Shown: in pieces, positions 33,475-46,770 of the stretch | How the letters are laid out: each line of letters begins with the position of its first letter | Numbering within the stretch: position 1 is the first letter of the stretch | Assembly: GCA_009886115.1 (NCBI GenBank) | Contig: VFJJ01000066.1 | Span: forward strand, 1 to 46,770 | Origin: Actinomycetota bacterium | GTDB taxonomy: Bacteria > Actinomycetota > Acidimicrobiia > IMCC26256 > VFJJ01 | Reading direction: 5' to 3' | Length of the DNA stretch: 46,770 nucleotides | The notes under the pieces: generated by a model | The model's input: the letters and a program-made list of their open reading frames with translations, nothing else | Database searches by the model: none | Told to the model about the DNA's origin: nothing | Position numbers and translations under genes: made by a program

Positions 33475-34491
33475 TCAGGGCGACAGCACGGCCCGGGCGA
33501 TCAGATCGGTCCCGAAGGCTGTGAGGATCGCCAGGTACAACAAGCCCGTGGCGCTCATGACCGCCGAGTAGTACTTCTCCCGCAAGGCGATGCGGACCAC
33601 GACCACGAGCGCGATGGTCGTGAGCGCGCACGTCGCCCACGTGTAGCCGAGCACGCCCGACCAGCCGTCGTCGACCTCGCCGCTGAAGACCTGCAGCATC
33701 CCGGTCGGCCACAGCAGCGCCGCGATCTCGACGGGCCAGGTGTAGCCCACCCAACGGTTGATCTCCTCGAGCAGCGATCGCGGCAACCCGGGCTGGGTGA
33801 GATACCAATGGCCGAGCAGCATGGCGTCGGTGACCGCGCCGAGGAAGGCTGCACCGGCGACGAGACGCACCAGGGCCAGGGCGTAGGGGCCGCCAACGGC
33901 ATGGGCTGCGAAGGCCAGACCCACCAGGCCCAGGATGGGAGCCACCAGATCGAGCCCGGGAGCGAACTCGGCGCCGGCGCCGCGGCGGGATGCAGGAGCC
34001 CCCGCCGCCCCGGTGACGACCGAGGAGGCGCGACGTTGGGCTTCGGCCACGGCCACGGGCACGGCTTCGGCCACGGCCACGGGCACGGCTACGGGCTCGG
34101 CCACGGGCTCGGCCACGGCCTCGGCTTCGGCGTCGGCTTCCCGATCCGACGGTCGGTCACGGCCGGCCATGGCCGCGATCGTCTGTCTGCGTTGGGCGCG
34201 GAGGGTTTCACGCCCCGACATCTCGACCGTGCGGCGAGTGATCGAGATGATCAACGCCACGCTCGCCGCCGCGCCCAGGGCGAGCGCCGACACGTCACGA
34301 CCGGCCGCTCCGGCCCCCTCGTGGCCCAGCACGCGACCGAGCACGACACCGAGGAGGGCCATCACGAGGTAGACCGCACGCAGGAGCCAGCCGTAGCCGA
34401 TCCCGGCGATCCGGTGCCGGGTCGTGACCCAGCAAAACGCCAGGCCTCCCGTGGCCCATTGCAGCATCACGGTGGCGGCGTCGAGCTCCAT
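33475..34491 (-). CDS. Conserved-looking membrane protein with Ala/Val/Glu/Pro repeat
   Basis: This encodes 338 residues with about eight hydrophobic segments: roughly three before residue 90 and the rest after 180. The hydrophilic loop between (about 95-175) carries a repeat of the type VAEAVPVA and PVAEPVAV, encoded by 24-bp direct repeats (34040-34087) and decayed copies. The second half has WYLTQPGLPRSLLEEINRW and WPTGMLQVFSG between spans. No motif points to a transport substrate or enzyme activity. The loop is probably cytoplasmic. Start ATG 34491 has no clear Shine-Dalgarno. I do not recognise the family. Confidence 0.75.
   Translation of the reverse strand: MELDAATVMLQWATGGLAFCWVTTRHRIAGIGYGWLLRAVYLVMALLGVVLGRVLGHEGAGAAGRDVSALALGAAASVALIISITRRTVEMSGRETLRAQRRQTIAAMAGRDRPSDREADAEAEAVAEPVAEPVAVPVAVAEAVPVAVAEAQRRASSVVTGAAGAPASRRGAGAEFAPGLDLVAPILGLVGLAFAAHAVGGPYALALVRLVAGAAFLGAVTDAMLLGHWYLTQPGLPRSLLEEINRWVGYTWPVEIAALLWPTGMLQVFSGEVDDGWSGVLGYTWATCALTTIALVVVVRIALREKYYSAVMSATGLLYLAILTAFGTDLIARAVLSP
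34040..34139. repeat. In-frame minisatellite
   Basis: A 24-bp unit (34040-34063) is repeated exactly at 34064-34087 and then decays into GGCCAC/GGGCTC hexamers to about 34139. The unit is eight codons long, so expansion keeps the minus-strand membrane-protein frame. Confidence 0.85.
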
Positions 34492-38905: not shown

Positions 38906-41209
38906 TCACAGCGACAAGACGCCCTGCTCGATTCGATGGACAGCGTTCAGATCGATCTCGTCGTCGGCCAGAGCAGGCGTCCCGAAGATGAGACCCTGCG
39001 CGCAATCGCAGCCGAGGCGTCGCAGGACCTCGCGCTGGGCGTCCGACTCGACTCCTTCGGCGATGGACACCATCTCGAAGGAACGCGCGAGATCGATGAT
39101 CGCCTTGATCGCCCGCTGTGCGCTCGAAGAGCTCCCGGGGACGAGGAGTTGGGCCACCAGCGCGGGATCGATCTTGAGCGCATCGGCGGGATCCGCGATC
39201 AGGGCAGCCAGCGGGAGCGCGGTACCGAACCCGTCGATCGCCACGTTGACGCCGTGACGTCGAAGCTCGGCGATGGTGGCTCGGATGGTCTCGTTCCCGC
39301 CAGCCACGACTCGCTCCGGAACCTCCAGGCACAGCCAGGAGGGCTCGACCCCGGTTTCCTCGAGCGCGTCCATGACGATCGCCGGGTAGTCGAACTGCTG
39401 GAGCGTCCGGTCGGAGACGTTGACACACACCGTGAGTGGCCAGTCCTCACGCGACTGCTCATGCCAGCACCGGAGCTGCGCACAGGCTTCCCTGAGCACC
39501 CACCGGTCGATGGGCACGATGAGATCGCACGACTCCGCGACGCCGATGAACTCGGCCGCGGCGATCAACCCTCGCTCCGGGTGCGACCAGCGGACGAGGG
39601 CTTCCATCCCGGCGAGCTCACCGCTGGCCAGTGACACGATCGGCTGGAAGGCGAGCGCGAGATGGTGGTCGTTCTTCGACCCGCAGGGGGAAGCAGGATG
39701 GCATGTGCTGCAGATCACCGCCCGGCGGAGCTGCTGCTCGACCAGCCGGCGCTGGTTGGTGCCGGAGCGGTCGTCGCCGTAGAGCTCCCATCCGCTCCGT
39801 CCGTTCACCTTGGCCCGGTACATCGCGGTGTCGGCGGCTCGCAACAGGTCGTCGGCCGCGCTCAGGTCGGGGGCGACGATGGCGATGCCGATGCTCGCGC
39901 CGATCCTGACCTCCTGCCCGCGCAGATGGAACGGCGTGGCGAAGGCCTGGCTGAGACGCCCGGCGATCCGACCGGCGTCGATCTGCTCGTTGAGCCCGTC
40001 GCACAACACGACGAACTCGTCGCCGCCGAAGCGGGCGACGGTGTCACTGGGCCGGATGGCCCGCCGGAGTCGATCGGCGGCACAGATCAGGAGCTCGTCG
40101 CCGGCCTCGTGACCGAGCGTGTCGTTGACGTCCTTGAACTTGTCGAGGTCGAGGAACAGCACGGCGACGGTCCCGTCGAGCGTGGCGCCGGGGTGCGATG
40201 CTCGGCGCTTGGCCCGGGCCAACGCCAACGCCAGACGGTCCATGAACAGGTTCCGGTTGGGTAGGCCGGTCAGGGCGTCGTGCAGCGCAGCATGCGAGAG
40301 CTGTTGTTGGATGTGGAAGCGCTCGAGGGCGATGGCGACGAGGTGGGCGGCCTGATCGACCAGCCGCTGCTCGTCAAGGGCCGGGCGGCGCGGCTCGCTG
40401 AAGTAGACGGTGAGAGCGCCCAGCACGTGGTCGCCCTCCGGCGCCAGGATGGGCATCGCCCACGCGGCGCGGAAGCCGTGCGCCAGGGCGGCGGCCCGGT
40501 CGGCCTCCCACACGTCGTCGGTCGCGATGTCGGCCGCGATCACCGCCTGATGCCGGTGCAGGCAGGCGCCCGGGCCGGCCGTCGGGCCGATCACCGAGCC
40601 CTCGACACCACTCAGGTACGCCGGCGGCAGGCTCGGCGCCGCCCCGACCTTGAGCGTGCGCCCGTCGTCGGTGAGATACACCCCGCACAGCATCCCGCCG
40701 CCGTGGCGTTCGACGAGCCCAACGATCTCGGTGAGCGTGGTCGAGAGCCCGGCGCCGCGGGCGATCATCTCGAGCACCCGGGCCTGGTCGGAACGGAACG
40801 CCTCGGCCCCGTTGCGCTCGATGGCGTAACGGATCGAGCGGGACAGCGAACGGGCATCGGCAAAACGCCGCGAGAGGAAGTCCTGAGCCCCGGCGTGGAC
40901 CGCGTCGGTTGCGAGCTGGTCGTCATCGAGATCGGTGAGCACGACGATCGGGAGGTTGTACCCGGTGTTGCGCAGCTTCAAGATGGCGGCGAGGCCGGCC
41001 GCGTCGGGGAGCGCCAGATCCAGGATCAGGCAGTCGGGCTGCATCGTCTCGAGCATCTCGACGGCCTCGGTGAGCCGACCGGCCCGATGGACGATCACCG
41101 GACCGTCCCACCCCTCCTCGAGGAGATGGTCGACGTCCGGCGCCAGCACGTCGAGCCCGAGATCGGCTTCGACGACCAGCAATTCGAGTCGACTGCCCGC
41201 CCGTTCCAT
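38906..41209 (-). CDS. Response regulator with GAF, GGDEF and EAL domains
   Basis: This 767-residue cytoplasmic protein is likely to make and/or break cyclic di-GMP. Receiver domain 1-125 with phospho-acceptor Asp64 in LILDLALPD; GAF domain about 150-300; GGDEF domain about 310-475 with intact GGDEF (395-399) and inhibitory-site RPSD (386-389); EAL domain about 518-755 with EAL (536-538). In the EAL domain the usual DDFGTG loop reads DGFGTA (659-664), losing one metal-binding Asp, while KID, AEGVES and CAQG motifs stay. The linker contains CSTCHPASPC (500-509). Start ATG 41209 places the receiver domain correctly; the longer frame from 41290 is not needed. No sensor kinase gene adjoins. Confidence 0.92.
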   Translation of the reverse strand: MERAGSRLELLVVEADLGLDVLAPDVDHLLEEGWDGPVIVHRAGRLTEAVEMLETMQPDCLILDLALPDAAGLAAILKLRNTGYNLPIVVLTDLDDDQLATDAVHAGAQDFLSRRFADARSLSRSIRYAIERNGAEAFRSDQARVLEMIARGAGLSTTLTEIVGLVERHGGGMLCGVYLTDDGRTLKVGAAPSLPPAYLSGVEGSVIGPTAGPGACLHRHQAVIAADIATDDVWEADRAAALAHGFRAAWAMPILAPEGDHVLGALTVYFSEPRRPALDEQRLVDQAAHLVAIALERFHIQQQLSHAALHDALTGLPNRNLFMDRLALALARAKRRASHPGATLDGTVAVLFLDLDKFKDVNDTLGHEAGDELLICAADRLRRAIRPSDTVARFGGDEFVVLCDGLNEQIDAGRIAGRLSQAFATPFHLRGQEVRIGASIGIAIVAPDLSAADDLLRAADTAMYRAKVNGRSGWELYGDDRSGTNQRRLVEQQLRRAVICSTCHPASPCGSKNDHHLALAFQPIVSLASGELAGMEALVRWSHPERGLIAAAEFIGVAESCDLIVPIDRWVLREACAQLRCWHEQSREDWPLTVCVNVSDRTLQQFDYPAIVMDALEETGVEPSWLCLEVPERVVAGGNETIRATIAELRRHGVNVAIDGFGTALPLAALIADPADALKIDPALVAQLLVPGSSSSAQRAIKAIIDLARSFEMVSIAEGVESDAQREVLRRLGCDCAQGLIFGTPALADDEIDLNAVHRIEQGVLSL

Positions 41210-41311
41210 GCCCGTGACCACCAGTCCCCACCGGTCGGCCCAGCACCCCTGGACGAGATGCACAGCTGGCCTGACGGCAAGTATCGGCACGCCGCCCGGC
41301 GACCTTGAGGC

Positions 41312-43519
41312 CTACCTGGCGGGCCCACGATCCTTCGCGTCGGTCGCGTGTTCCGTGACCGTGACGGTGGTATCGGTGGTAGCGGTGGTATCGGTGGTAG
41401 CGGCGGGGCGGCTGGCCGATGCCACGGCCGCCTTCGCGTGATAGCTCGATCGCACGAGCGGCCCGGACTCGACGTGGGCGAACCCCAGCGTGGCCGCGAG
41501 CTCACCGAGCGCCGCGAACTCGTCGGGGTGCCACCAGCGAACGACGGGCAGGTGGGCGGCGGTGGGCTGGAGGTACTGGCCGACGGTGAGGAGCCCGACG
41601 CCGACGCCACGCAGGTCGACCAGGGCGGCGTGGACCTCGGCGACCGTCTCGCCCATGCCCACGATGAGCCCCGACTTGGTCGGGAGCCCGGCGTCGGCGG
41701 CCCGGGCCAGCACCACGAGCGAACGGGCGTACCCGGCCGACGGGCGAGCCGCCCGCTGGAGCCGGGCGACGGTCTCCAGGTTGTGGTTGAGCACGTCGGG
41801 CCGGGCCTCGAAGATCGTGGCCAGCGCAGCCTCGTCGCCCTTCACATCGGAGATCAGCACCTCGACCGTCGTGGCCGGCGAGCGCTCGCGAACAGCGGCG
41901 ATGGTGGCGGCGAAATGGGCGGCGCCCCCGTCGGGCAGGTCGTCACGAGCCACGCAGGTGATGACCACGTGCGCCAGCCCGAGGCGGACCACGGCCTCGG
42001 CAACCTGATGGGGTTCGCCCGCATCGGGCGGCCCGGGCCGGCGGGTGTCGACGAGGCAGAACCCGCAGGCCCGGGTGCAGCGCTGGCCCAGGATCATGAA
42101 GGTGGCCGTGCGGTGCTCGCCCCAGCACTCGTAGATGTTCGGGCATCCCGCTTCCTCGCACACCGTCGTGAGGCCCAGATCGCCCACCAGCCGTTTCATC
42201 TCCGCATAGCCACCGTCCAGCCGGGCTCGAACCCGCATCCACTCGGGCCGCTCGGTGCGCGCCGGTCGGCCCTCGTCGGGCTCGACGACACCGGCCTCGG
42301 CCAGCCGTCCGAGCAGGCGAACGGGCTGGGCTCGGGACGAGGGCCGAGCTCGGGATCCGGGCTCGGCCAGCGGTGTCGCGTCGGCCCGACCGCGAGTGGG
42401 GTGCGACTCGTTCGCTCGCCCGTGATCGCGGTCGTGCTCGCGGACACCGTCGGCCACGCGGACGCCGTCGGCCTCGCGGCCGCCGCGGTCGCCGCCGTGC
42501 TCGTGGGCGCGGTCGTGCTCGCGGGCGCGGTCGTGCTCGCGGAGGCCGTCATGCTCACGGGCGCCGTCAAGCTCGCGAGCGCGGTCGTGCTCGCGGACGC
42601 CGTCGGCCTCGCGGCCGCCGTCAAGCTCGCGGACACCGTCGGCGTCGACGACGCCGGGGCCGCCAGCCTCGGCGCCCGCCGGGGTCTGGGCCAGGCGGCT
42701 GAAGGCGCTGAGATCCTCGGGACGGATCCGCCACGCGACATCGTGGCGGGCGACCTCGGTGTGACCGAATCGCTCGGCGAATCGGTGCGCGAACGCATCG
42801 GCCACCGCCCGCATCTCGACCGGACGGCCCAGCTCGGCCTCGAGCGACGTGACGCCGCGGTCGCGGATGCCGCAGGGGACGATGTGGTCGAACATCGCCA
42901 GGTCGGTGCTCACGTTGAGAGCGATGCCGTGCATCGAACGCCCCCGGCTCACCTTCACCCCGATCGCCGCGATCTTCCTCGGGCGCTCGGGGGCACCCGG
43001 GACACCGGTTCCGGGGGCCGGGTTACCGGCCGCGGCCGCGGGGACACCCGTTCCGGCTGCCGGGTTACCGGCCACGGCTGCGGGGGCACCGGCTCTGGCT
43101 GCGACTGCGGCTGGGCGCCCGTCGACCCAGACGCCGGTGAAGCCGGGCTCGGTGAACGCCGTCTGGCCGAGATCAGCCAGCGCGGCGATCAGCACCGCTT
43201 CGAGATCGCGGACGTAGCGCACCACGTCGGTCATCCCGCCCCGCCACTCGGGGAGCGTGATGATCGGGTAGGCCACGAGCTGCCCGGGCCCGTGGTAGGT
43301 GATGTCGCCGCCGCGGTCGACCTCGACGCACTCCGCTCCCACCAGGGCCGGATCGACCAGCAGGTGCTCTCGCGACGAGCGCGACCCCAGCGTGTACACG
43401 TGCGGATGCTCGAGGAGCAGGAGGTGGTCGACGGGCGAACGCTGGTGCAGCGCTCGCTGGAGCGCCCAGGCCTCCCGGTAGGGCACCCGGCCCAGCCAGC
43501 GAGCGTGCAGCGTGGTCAT
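41312..43519 (-). CDS. LipB-LipA fusion: octanoyltransferase plus lipoyl synthase
   Basis: One open frame of 735 residues holds both steps of lipoate synthesis. LipB (1-275): GGDITYHGPGQ (70-80), Lys182 in RKIAAIGVK, and catalytic Cys216 in HIVPCGI. LipA (about 405-735): auxiliary-cluster cysteines C454, C459, C465 in CEEAGCPNIYEC, the radical-SAM CTRACGFC (481, 485, 488) and RSSYHAK near the end. Between them lies a charged linker (about 285-400) of REHD-type repeats. A second repeat insertion (136-180) interrupts LipB. No stop codon, and no ATG or GTG that would open LipA before its conserved PEWMRVR, is found in the linker. Start ATG 43519 has CACAAT 7 nt upstream. LipB and LipA are usually separate proteins. 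Confidence 0.9.
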   Translation of the reverse strand: MTTLHARWLGRVPYREAWALQRALHQRSPVDHLLLLEHPHVYTLGSRSSREHLLVDPALVGAECVEVDRGGDITYHGPGQLVAYPIITLPEWRGGMTDVVRYVRDLEAVLIAALADLGQTAFTEPGFTGVWVDGRPAAVAARAGAPAAVAGNPAAGTGVPAAAAGNPAPGTGVPGAPERPRKIAAIGVKVSRGRSMHGIALNVSTDLAMFDHIVPCGIRDRGVTSLEAELGRPVEMRAVADAFAHRFAERFGHTEVARHDVAWRIRPEDLSAFSRLAQTPAGAEAGGPGVVDADGVRELDGGREADGVREHDRARELDGAREHDGLREHDRAREHDRAHEHGGDRGGREADGVRVADGVREHDRDHGRANESHPTRGRADATPLAEPGSRARPSSRAQPVRLLGRLAEAGVVEPDEGRPARTERPEWMRVRARLDGGYAEMKRLVGDLGLTTVCEEAGCPNIYECWGEHRTATFMILGQRCTRACGFCLVDTRRPGPPDAGEPHQVAEAVVRLGLAHVVITCVARDDLPDGGAAHFAATIAAVRERSPATTVEVLISDVKGDEAALATIFEARPDVLNHNLETVARLQRAARPSAGYARSLVVLARAADAGLPTKSGLIVGMGETVAEVHAALVDLRGVGVGLLTVGQYLQPTAAHLPVVRWWHPDEFAALGELAATLGFAHVESGPLVRSSYHAKAAVASASRPAATTDTTATTDTTVTVTEHATDAKDRGPAR
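42404..42640. repeat. Degenerate 18-bp coding repeat in the LipB-LipA linker
   Basis: On the minus strand, units such as CGCGAGCACGACCGCGCC encode REHDRA. Variants give RELDGA, READGV and REHDGL. Copies are imperfect but always a multiple of three bases. This is not a CRISPR array: there are no unique spacers. Confidence 0.85.
42980..43114. repeat. Coding repeat inserted in the LipB domain
   Basis: About 45-bp units encode AGNPA(A/P)GTGVP(A/G) twice. They lie between two conserved LipB segments (WVDG and RKIAAIG), where LipB normally has a short loop. Confidence 0.8.
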
Positions 43520-43526
43520 GGTGACG

Positions 43527-43532
43527 ATTGTG
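43527..43532 (-). promoter_or_regulatory. -10-like box of the LipB-LipA gene
   Basis: CACAAT ends 7 nt before ATG 43519; it differs from TANNNT by its first base. Confidence 0.3.
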
Positions 43533-43563
43533 CCCCGCTCGGGCCCCCGTCCCCCACCCGTCA

Positions 43564-43616
43564 GCGTTCTTTGTGGCCACGACCGCGCCGGGAGCGGCCC
43601 TGGACACAAAGAACGC
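43564..43616. terminator. Inverted repeat C after the E2 gene
   Basis: A perfect 12-bp stem GCGTTCTTTGTG / CACAAAGAACGC with a 29-nt GC-rich loop. It lies 5 nt past the E2 stop, so it may end the lpd-E2 transcript ahead of the LipB-LipA gene. Confidence 0.55.
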
Positions 43617-43621
43617 GCTGG

Positions 43622-45199
43622 CTACGCCAGCTCGGTCTCCCAGTCGCGGGTCTCGAGGATCTCCTTCAGGCGCCGCAGGAACGCCGCCGAGTAGGCCCCG
43701 TCGAACGCCCGATGATCGAACGTCTGGCTCACGTAGCCGATGTGGCGCACCGCGATGGAGTCGCCGTCGGGACCCTCGACCACCACGGGACGCTTCTTCA
43801 CGCCGTCGGTCGTGAGGATGGCCACCTGGGGCTGGTTGATCACCGCGGTCGAGATGTGGGTGCCGAAGGGCCCGGGGTTGGTGATCGTGTAGGTCCCGCC
43901 GGCGATGTCGTCGGGGCCGAGCTGACGGGAGCGGGCCTTCTCGGCGAGCTCGCGGATCTCACGGGCGATCTGGCGCAGCCGCTTGCCGTCGGCGTTCCTG
44001 ATCACCGGCACGATGAGCCCGGTGAAGTCGAGGTCGACGGCGACGCCGAGGTTCACAGTCGACCGAACGACGAGGGAGTCGCCCTCGATGCTGGCGTTCA
44101 CCTGGGGGTACTCGGTGATCGTGTCGACGAGGGCCCGGCTCACGAACGGGAGGTAGGTGAGGCTGAACCCTTCCCGGGCCCGCCATTCGGCCTGTGCCGC
44201 CCGCCGGACCCGTTCGATGCGCTCGAAGTCGATCTCCATCGACATCGAGACGTGGGCGCTCGTGTCGAGGGACCGGACCATGTGCTCGGCCGTCCGGCGT
44301 CGCATCGACGTGAACGGCACCACCTGATCGCGGGGCCCCACCTGGACCGCAGCCCGCACGACCGGCACCGATGGGGCGGCGGCCGGAGCGGCCGGTGGGG
44401 GCGCAGCAACCGGCTGCGGGGCCGGCGACGGCGAGGGCGTGGCGACGGGCTGCGGTGCCGCGGCTGCCGGGGCCGGAGCAGCAGGGGCAGGGGGCGGAGG
44501 CGGGGCCTGTGCAGCAGGTACCGGGGCCACCTCGGGGGGCGGGGGTTGTGGAGCGGACGAGGCGGCCGGGGCTGGCTGGGTGCCGGCGGCGCGATCGTCG
44601 ATGTAGTCGAGGACGTCGTTGCGGGTGATCCGACCGCCGGCGCCGGTTCCCGGGATCTGCGCCGAATCGAGACCGTGCTCGACGATCAGGCGCCTGACCA
44701 CGGGAGACAGCACCATCGCGTCGGGGCGGTCGCCACCGGACGCGTCTGCGGGCACAGCAGCGGGCGCTGGCGCGCTCTGAGCAACCGGAGCGGTCTGAGC
44801 AACCGGGGCGGCCGGGGCGGCAGCTGGCGGCACACCAGCCGGCACCGGCGGCGGAGGCGGGGGAGCCGGCGCAACCTCGACCACCGGAGCCGGAGGCGGC
44901 GGTGGCGGTGGCGCAAGTACCGCCTCAGGGGGAGCTGGCGGCGGCGTCGGGGGGTCGACGGCCGCAGCGTCGCCGATCACGGCGAGCGGAGTCCCGACGG
45001 GGACCGTCTCGCCCTCGGCCACGAGGATCGCACTGAGCACCCCGGCCTCAGACGACGGGACCTCGGAGTCGACCTTGTCGGTCGAGACCTCGAACAGGAG
45101 CTCGTCGCGTTCGACCCGATCGCCGACCTGCTTGAGCCACTTGGTGATGGTGCCCTCGGTGACTGTCTCGCCCAACTGCGGCATGGTGATCTGACCCAC
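43622..45199 (-). CDS. sucB: Dihydrolipoamide acyltransferase, E2 of a 2-oxoacid dehydrogenase
   Basis: This 525-residue protein is the core of a 2-oxoglutarate, pyruvate or branched-chain dehydrogenase. One lipoyl domain (1-77) has the lipoylated Lys42 in VSTDKVDSE. A long Pro/Ala linker leads to the peripheral-subunit-binding domain (about 163-200, SPVVRRLIVEHGLDSAQIPG) and, after a second Pro/Ala linker (205-290), the catalytic domain ends in HRAFDG with His496 and Asp500. Which oxoacid is used cannot be told from this gene alone; E1 is not in the window. Start GTG 45199 has GAGGAGAG upstream. It lies 46 nt after lpd, in one operon, and next to the LipB-LipA fusion that lipoylates it. Confidence 0.92.
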   Translation of the reverse strand: MGQITMPQLGETVTEGTITKWLKQVGDRVERDELLFEVSTDKVDSEVPSSEAGVLSAILVAEGETVPVGTPLAVIGDAAAVDPPTPPPAPPEAVLAPPPPPPPAPVVEVAPAPPPPPPVPAGVPPAAAPAAPVAQTAPVAQSAPAPAAVPADASGGDRPDAMVLSPVVRRLIVEHGLDSAQIPGTGAGGRITRNDVLDYIDDRAAGTQPAPAASSAPQPPPPEVAPVPAAQAPPPPPAPAAPAPAAAAPQPVATPSPSPAPQPVAAPPPAAPAAAPSVPVVRAAVQVGPRDQVVPFTSMRRRTAEHMVRSLDTSAHVSMSMEIDFERIERVRRAAQAEWRAREGFSLTYLPFVSRALVDTITEYPQVNASIEGDSLVVRSTVNLGVAVDLDFTGLIVPVIRNADGKRLRQIAREIRELAEKARSRQLGPDDIAGGTYTITNPGPFGTHISTAVINQPQVAILTTDGVKKRPVVVEGPDGDSIAVRHIGYVSQTFDHRAFDGAYSAAFLRRLKEILETRDWETELA

Positions 45200-45245
45200 G
45201 AACTCTCCTCGGTACCGTTGTGCTGCTCTCGCCAGCCTTGCGTTC

Positions 45246-46688
45246 TCAGCCGTGCAGGCCCCGGCCGGTGAGGGCCATGGCCGTCTCGCCGAACAGCTCG
45301 CTGAGGGTGGGGTGCGCGTGCACGAGCGCTCCGACGTCGGCTGCGGTCGCCTCCCAGTTGACGGCCAGGTAGCCCTCGGCGATCAGCTCGGTCGCCCACG
45401 GTCCGGTGATGTGGACGCCCACGATGGGGCCGTTCTTCTCGGCCACGATCTTCACGATGCCGTCGGGCTCGCCGATGATCAACGCCCGTCCGTTACCCAC
45501 GAAATGGTGGATCGACACGTCGATGTCGAGCCCGGCCTCGCGGGCCTGGGCCTCGGTCATGCCGCAGAACGCGACCTCGGGATGGCAGTAGATGCCCCAG
45601 GGCACCTTGGCGTAGTCGACGGGGACGGCATCCTCGCCGAGGATGTCCTTGATGGCCACGATCGCCTCGGCGAAGGCCACGTGAGCCAGTTGCGGCGTGG
45701 CCACCAGGTCGCCGACGGCGTAGACGCCCTCGAGCGAGGTGCGCATGTACGGATCGACGGTCACGAAGCCCCGCTGGTCGACGGCCACGCCCGAGCCGTC
45801 GAGACCGACCGCGTCGGTGCGCGGTCGGCGCCCCACGCTCACCACCACCGCGTCGACCGTCAACACCTGCTCGGCCCCCGAGGCGTCGACGTAGCGGACG
45901 GCCGTCGCGTTGTCGGCCGCGTCGCCATCGGCACGCGAGTGCCCGAGCACGCGCACCCCGGTGTGGGTCGTGATGCGGCGCTTCTTGAAGGCCCGCACGG
46001 CCGCGTTGGCGGCGTCGACATCGACGCCCGTGAGGATCTGCGGGAGCGCCTCGAGGATGGTGACGCTCGCTCCGACGTCGGTGAAGAACGAGGCGAACTC
46101 GCAGCCGATGGCGCCGCCACCGATCACCGCCACCCGGCCCGGAACATGGTCGAGCGCCAGCACCTCGTCCGACGAGAGGATGCTCGTCTTGTCGAAGTCG
46201 AAGCCGGGCAACGCACGGGGCGTCGAGCCCATCGCCAGCACCAGCGCGTCGCCCGAGATCTCGGAGCCGTCGGCCAGGCGCACCCGACGATCAGCCGCGT
46301 GGGCAATCGTCCCCCGCGAGTTGAAGACCGTGACCTTGCGCCCCTTCAGCAAGCTCTCGAGCCCCTTGGTGAGCCGGTCGATGATGCCCTGCTTGCGCGT
46401 CTGGCTCACCGCGAGATCGAGCGTCAGCGTGCCCGGCGTGCCCGGCGTGCCCGGCGCGCCCACGTTCACGCCGAAGTCGGCCGCGTGGCCCACCGTCCGG
46501 AACACCGTGGCCGTCTCGAGCAGCTCCTTGGCCGGGATGCACCCCACGTGCAGGCACGTCCCGCCCACCCGGCTCTCCTCGACCAGCGCCACGTTCAGCC
46601 CCGCCGCCGCCCCGTACAGCGCAGCCGCGTACCCTCCGGGCCCCCCGCCGAGCACCACCACATCGAAGTGCGCCGCACCCTCGCCCAC
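45246..46688 (-). CDS. lpdA: Dihydrolipoamide dehydrogenase (E3)
   Basis: This 480-residue FAD enzyme re-oxidises the lipoyl group of E2 and passes electrons to NAD+. FAD-binding GGGPGGY (14-20), redox disulfide CLHVGC (Cys45/Cys50), NAD-binding GGGAIGCEFAS, and active-site His-Glu in HAHPTLSE near the C-terminus. All catalytic residues are present. A short tract GTPGTPGTPGT near residues 78-89, encoded by three 9-bp repeats, is an insertion in a surface loop. Start GTG 46688, with GAGG about 12 nt upstream. The 82 bases upstream of it to the window end show no gene. Confidence 0.96.
   Translation of the reverse strand: MGEGAAHFDVVVLGGGPGGYAAALYGAAAGLNVALVEESRVGGTCLHVGCIPAKELLETATVFRTVGHAADFGVNVGAPGTPGTPGTLTLDLAVSQTRKQGIIDRLTKGLESLLKGRKVTVFNSRGTIAHAADRRVRLADGSEISGDALVLAMGSTPRALPGFDFDKTSILSSDEVLALDHVPGRVAVIGGGAIGCEFASFFTDVGASVTILEALPQILTGVDVDAANAAVRAFKKRRITTHTGVRVLGHSRADGDAADNATAVRYVDASGAEQVLTVDAVVVSVGRRPRTDAVGLDGSGVAVDQRGFVTVDPYMRTSLEGVYAVGDLVATPQLAHVAFAEAIVAIKDILGEDAVPVDYAKVPWGIYCHPEVAFCGMTEAQAREAGLDIDVSIHHFVGNGRALIIGEPDGIVKIVAEKNGPIVGVHITGPWATELIAEGYLAVNWEATAADVGALVHAHPTLSELFGETAMALTGRGLHG
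46428..46454. repeat. Three 9-bp repeats in lpd
   Basis: CGTGCCCGG occurs three times in direct succession. On the minus strand it encodes Pro-Gly-Thr units in a surface loop of E3. Confidence 0.85.
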
Positions 46689-46770
46689 GTCCCTGTCCTC
46701 GTCTGTGTCGATCGTCCGCGTCGTCGTCCGTCGGCCAGCAACCCCGACGCCCGCAGCTTACGACGACACC

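Follow-up and report, generated by a model that had tools for sequence, protein, structure and literature searches.

A lipB-lipA fusion gene of the Acidimicrobiia probably encodes a single-chain lipoate-assembly enzyme with a locally expanded linker

In lipoate assembly, an octanoyltransferase (LipB) and then a lipoyl synthase (LipA) act on a protein-bound intermediate, and the octanoylated lipoyl domain is usually assumed to diffuse between the two enzymes. Separate LipB and LipA are known to be enough in other organisms. The idea of a lipoyl-attachment enzyme fused ahead of LipA is already found in an NCBIfam family, LplA_LipA_fuse (NF053790). For the individual enzymes, Lys142 and Cys176 have been named as the catalytic dyad of M. 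tuberculosis LipB (PMC9307952), and the roles of the CX4CX5C, CX3CX2C and RSSY motifs of LipA are given in PMC12246082.

The locus described here belongs to a stretch of 46,770 nucleotides, the whole of which was analysed (hereafter the window), from a bacterium of the class Acidimicrobiia. Both enzymes are carried by one gene (Table 1). Its frame starts at an ATG at 43519, preceded by a weak ribosome-binding site, runs through 735 aa devoid of internal stops and closes with a stop codon that ends at 41312; the octanoyltransferase forms the N-terminal part of the chain and the lipoyl synthase its C-terminal part. The initial annotation had proposed such a one-frame fusion with the catalytic residues of both enzymes, and NCBIfam, Pfam and motif alignments agree with it. 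Indeed, the protein passes the Pfam models LplA-B_cat and Radical_SAM, carries the complete set of known catalytic and cluster-binding residues of LipB and LipA, and shows two well-formed domains in its predicted structure. Very probably, this gene specifies a single bifunctional lipoate-assembly enzyme, issued from one fusion in an ancestor of the Acidimicrobiia, whose domains are joined by a neutral, disordered repeat spacer.

Table 1. Features of the fused gene and of its upstream neighbours (window coordinates)
Feature	Position	Strand	Basis or remark
lipB-lipA fused gene	41312..43519	-	single open frame; 735 codons plus stop
LipB (octanoyltransferase) domain, about aa 1-260	42740..43519	-	NCBIfam/Pfam; match to M. 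tuberculosis LipB 1w66; pLDDT
Stretch with catalytic dyad Lys182 + Cys216	42872..42976	-	alignment to 1w66; invariant in 39 fused proteins
Low-complexity repeat insert in LipB loop, about aa 138-180	42980..43108	-	tandem array; loop length; low pLDDT
Linker from LipB to LipA, aa 253-424	42248..42763	-	172 aa; 38 relatives compared
18-bp tandem array coding imperfect REHD hexads	42427..42642	-	12.5 copies
In-frame GTG (aa 355) in linker, possible but weak internal start	42455..42457	-	
Motif PVRLLGRLAEAGV, aa 399-411, near LipA end of linker	42287..42325	-	recurs in relatives
Radical-SAM lipoyl synthase (LipA) domain, about aa 424-701	41417..42250	-	TIGR00510; 5exi; Foldseek
In-frame ATG, Met428 of PEWMRVR, inside conserved LipA N-terminal motif	42236..42238	-	
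Auxiliary-cluster cysteines C454, C459, C465 (CX4CX5C)	42125..42160	-	sequence; invariant in 39 fused proteins
Cysteines C481, C485, C488 of radical-SAM cluster (CX3CX2C)	42056..42079	-	sequence; invariant in 39 fused proteins
RSSY motif, aa 690-693	41441..41452	-	sequence; R690, S691, S692 invariant in 39 fused proteins
Gene of the lipoyl-domain E2 acyltransferase, likely substrate	43622..45199	-	Pfam Biotin_lipoyl, E3_binding, 2-oxoacid_dh
E3 (dihydrolipoyl dehydrogenase) gene, probably first in cluster	45246..46688	-	Pfam; same order in many relatives

The LipB half scores above the thresholds of both NCBIfam models, NF010925 (209.8 for a cut-off of 155) and TIGR00214 (143.4 for a cut-off of 83.55), and matches solved LipB structures in Foldseek searches. 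Alignment with the M. tuberculosis enzyme (1w66) places Lys182 and Cys216 on Lys142 and Cys176, and the pLDDT of the predicted domain mostly exceeds 90, except in the loop insert. The LipA half likewise passes its model (TIGR00510, 336.7 bits for a cut-off of 310.25), aligns with 5exi and is retrieved by Foldseek with a TMt of about 0.9 to 5exk. Among 39 fused proteins, the residues of the LipB dyad and of the LipA motifs are all invariant, with the exception of the final Tyr of RSSY. Judged by homology, the chain would catalyse octanoyl transfer as well as sulfur insertion, its most likely substrate being the lipoyl domain of the adjacent E2.

The initial annotation had suggested that relatives be checked for proteins carrying both domains. 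This check was run, and the fusion proved common to the Acidimicrobiia. The locus is noteworthy as a real single-chain fusion, but the fusion itself is an old, class-wide trait rather than a local one; only the linker expansion and the insert in the LipB loop are local. A scan of named genomes combined with a test of the frames found all two-domain loci of Acidimicrobiia-type genomes to be fused, the examples including Acidiferrimicrobium, Candidatus Microthrix, Candidatus Actinomarina and many MAGs. Over all the loci examined in the class, the exceptions are limited to one contaminant-like contig, truncations at contig edges and a few frameshifts in LipA; among the two-domain loci tested, they come down to that contig and a single LipA frameshift. 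A LipA match was obtained in 276 of the 296 genomes of the class, and nearly all the matches listed sit in frames that could accommodate both domains; in 80 further genomes of the class, with weaker scores, the frames are likewise nearly all long enough among the matches listed. The LipA match is missing or fragmentary in a few genomes of the class, most of which look like incomplete assemblies.

Wherever the LipB-LipA joint can be read among the apparently unfused loci of the class, it is in frame. Four of these loci (L002, L134, L146 and L149) lie at contig ends and three others (L147, L150 and L152) have frameshifts inside LipA. In L134 (G233:C113), LipA is in frame with a PurD-like N-terminus at the contig end, which is probably an assembly chimera. 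One pair of separate genes (G052:C83, L085/L133) probably results from contamination, since its contig measures 5 kb, the tree places it apart from the fused clade and the genome it comes from also has a fused copy. Frames of 780-1375 aa in some members of the class merely reflect GC-rich read-through upstream of the start. A fusion of the Acidimicrobiia type, located inside the fused clade, was also found in a record titled Bifidobacterium breve (L010), probably a mislabelled MAG.

Outside the class, LipA frames of the phylum sample are mostly 290-430 aa in length, and lipB and lipA are separate in the other loci checked from Actinomycetota and Acidobacteriota. The long LipA frames retrieved from other Actinomycetota (G495, G442, G393, G559 and others) all proved unfused: they correspond to separate genes, or no LipB was found nearby.

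This distribution bears directly on whether a lost stop or a frameshift in the repeat could have merged two genes in the assembly. The genome is a draft of 224 contigs and the joint coincides with a repetitive, GC-rich array, both of which would favour such an error; however, the fused frame occurs in dozens of independent assemblies, many of them with short, non-repetitive linkers, and a coding-like GC content at third positions persists through the repeat. Because the fused frame is conserved across the class, an artefact of this kind is effectively refuted and retains a negligible probability.

Quick phylogenetic trees of the two halves were compared. The fused rows of the LipA tree all group in one clade (SH-aLRT 98), which also holds two rows scored as separate that are contig-edge fragments. 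In the LipB tree, a single branch (support 94) divides the fused from the separate rows. Each of the two trees is thus compatible with a single fusion event, during which adjacent lipB and lipA genes were probably joined once, in the ancestor of the Acidimicrobiia.

A fused frame could nevertheless yield two active proteins, LipA being made also or mainly alone by internal initiation or released by cleavage of the linker. The initial annotation had found no in-frame ATG or GTG ahead of PEWMRVR; this needs correcting, as the GTG at 42457 (aa 355) is in frame within the linker. Together with the ATG at 42238, it leaves room for internal initiation, and the linker is predicted to be disordered and hence protease-prone. 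However, no convincing ribosome-binding site was found at either codon. Furthermore, the ATG sits in the PEW motif, and the residue that follows PEW in the fused set is Met in 59 of 78 proteins, Leu in 17 and Val in two, so that about a quarter of the relatives code for Leu or Val there and this ATG is not a conserved start. The linker also shrinks to just 27-39 residues in some fused relatives. A two-product gene is therefore quite improbable, and the full-length chain is inferred to be the main product, with both halves active.

In the window, the linker is much longer than elsewhere. Counted from the end of LipB to PEW, it reaches about 172 residues, instead of the 115 first reported, whereas 38 relatives have between 27 and 84 (median 54). 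The imperfect six-residue REHD repeats pointed out by the initial annotation turn out to be encoded by a genuine tandem array, and this array (42427-42642) accounts for the excess length. The GC content at the third codon position stays between 0.77 and 0.97 all through the linker, which therefore reads as coding, and the span of lengths, from 27-84 residues elsewhere to 172 here, indicates that a given linker length is not required. Near its LipA end, PVRLLGRLAEAGV has a counterpart of the form R-L-x-x-A-G-V in many relatives and is predicted as a short helix both in the window protein and in a relative with a short linker (L001). Two other repetitive regions of the protein had gone unmentioned, the insert in the LipB loop and the C-terminal tail. 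The former stems from a 42-bp/21-bp tandem array (42999-43102) that adds about 43 residues, bringing the loop to a length of 46, compared with 0-18 in the 38 relatives, where the insert has no counterpart.

The long REHD linker might be functional, for example by spacing the domains as a charged helix or by binding E2 or some other partner. The 18-bp repeats preserve the frame, and a low-confidence helix is predicted at aa 308-339; however, the REHD linker is absent from all 38 aligned relatives, most of it has a pLDDT below 50, and the same gene carries two other, unrelated low-complexity expansions. Such a function is thus given little credence. The long linker and the loop insert are best explained as neutral, in-frame, disordered repeat expansions local to this genome, the only one of its family in the collection. 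Even a repeat spacer of 172 residues between LipB and LipA is then probably tolerated.

The gene context is in keeping with the initial annotation, which had placed the fusion next to its E2 gene: this gene lies directly upstream. In most relatives with enough flanking sequence, an E2 gene is found immediately upstream on the same strand, often preceded by E3; in a Microthrix-like group, it is E3, not E2, that directly precedes the fused gene. Apart from the fused gene, neither a LipA nor a true LipB was found in the genome. A second LplA-B_cat protein of 269 aa (L082, C41:16029-16529) weakly resembles octanoyl/lipoyl-GcvH transferases (57.9 bits for a cut-off of 400) and is encoded beside a methyltransferase-like and a sulfotransferase-like gene.

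Other repeats were recorded in the window: a nine-base in-frame repeat in the E3 gene (46427-46461, an APGTPGTPGT stretch), a 24-bp tandem repeat (GGCTACGGCCACGGCCACGGGCAC) at 34039-34131 and a run of CACGAC hexamers at the contig edge (1-46). In addition, the region between E2 and lipBA harbours a 47-bp inverted-repeat element, TTCTTTGTG-N29-CRCAAAGAA, at 43567-43613. This element occupies 52 distinct sites in the genome, this intergenic copy and 51 others; all 52 are exactly 47 bp long even though gaps of 18-36 were allowed, a control search read backwards gave none, and the element is absent from the 147 other genomes of the class that were searched. The copy at 43567-43613 has a hairpin z-score of -4.1, some inner positions being paired in just 40-50% of the copies, and no Rfam match was found in 41000-46770. 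It may be a REP-like element, a terminator or a palindrome bound by a protein through two half-sites.

How the fused enzyme would work can be proposed from the known chemistry of its halves. In the LipB half, Cys216 would accept an octanoyl group from acyl carrier protein, and the lysine of a lipoyl domain would then receive it, the E2 gene just upstream being the most likely source of that domain. On this octanoyl-lysine, the LipA half would add sulfur to C6 and C8 in a radical-SAM reaction that consumes the auxiliary cluster. The tether would set the two steps at 1:1 and hold LipA near the octanoylated domain. Such a physical coupling of the two reactions, and any benefit of proximity, are putative.

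Whether the coupling extends to a direct hand-off can be approached through predicted structures. The model of the window protein has a pTM of 0.77, with 158 residues below a pLDDT of 50, and that of L001 a pTM of 0.90. As this last value is high for loosely tethered domains, it hints that LipB and LipA pack together, and hence that the short-linker relative may have a fixed inter-domain arrangement in which direct hand-off would be possible. In its strongest form, a compact two-site station with fixed LipB/LipA packing, in which the bound lipoyl domain swings between the sites, would make hand-off obligatory in the Acidimicrobiia; this is regarded as unlikely. Somewhat less doubtful, while still tentative, is the opposite proposal that a genuine fusion with two working halves involves no hand-off at all, the only effect being equal amounts of the two enzymes, with octanoylated lipoyl domains diffusing between molecules. 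The sufficiency of separate enzymes elsewhere and the free variation of linker length and sequence speak for it, but the fusion has been kept across the whole class, and the predicted pTM of L001 suggests a defined arrangement of the domains.

Whatever the degree of coupling, this natural, class-wide fusion, probably of single origin, is a ready system for a direct test of LipB-LipA coupling. The fused protein is also a near-universal marker for the Acidimicrobiia, and the fusion explains why annotations of these bacteria may report lipB or lipA as missing.

No description of a LipB-LipA fusion was found in the open-licence literature searched, it being understood that automatic database entries may exist, and no NCBIfam model of such a fusion figures among the hits of the protein. 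The components are known; the fused architecture is the new part. Compared with the LipB family (TIGR00214, NF010925), the window protein has the whole domain, the Lys/Cys dyad, the RGG loop and scores over the curated cut-offs, but adds a C-terminal lipoyl synthase and a repeat insert in one loop. Compared with LipA (TIGR00510), it has the complete radical-SAM enzyme, including RSSY and the two cluster motifs, and a score over the cut-off, but here LipA is preceded in the chain by LipB and a linker and has no start of its own. The protein does not belong to LplA_LipA_fuse, for which it scores 340.1 bits instead of the required 800, only its LipA half (aa 416-697) being matched; members of that family begin instead with the ATP-dependent ligase LplA. 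Finally, five loci of Acidobacteriota (L040, L058, L063, L064 and L074) share the order lipB then lipA, in adjacent genes, but there the two remain separate frames with separate stops, whereas in the window they form one.
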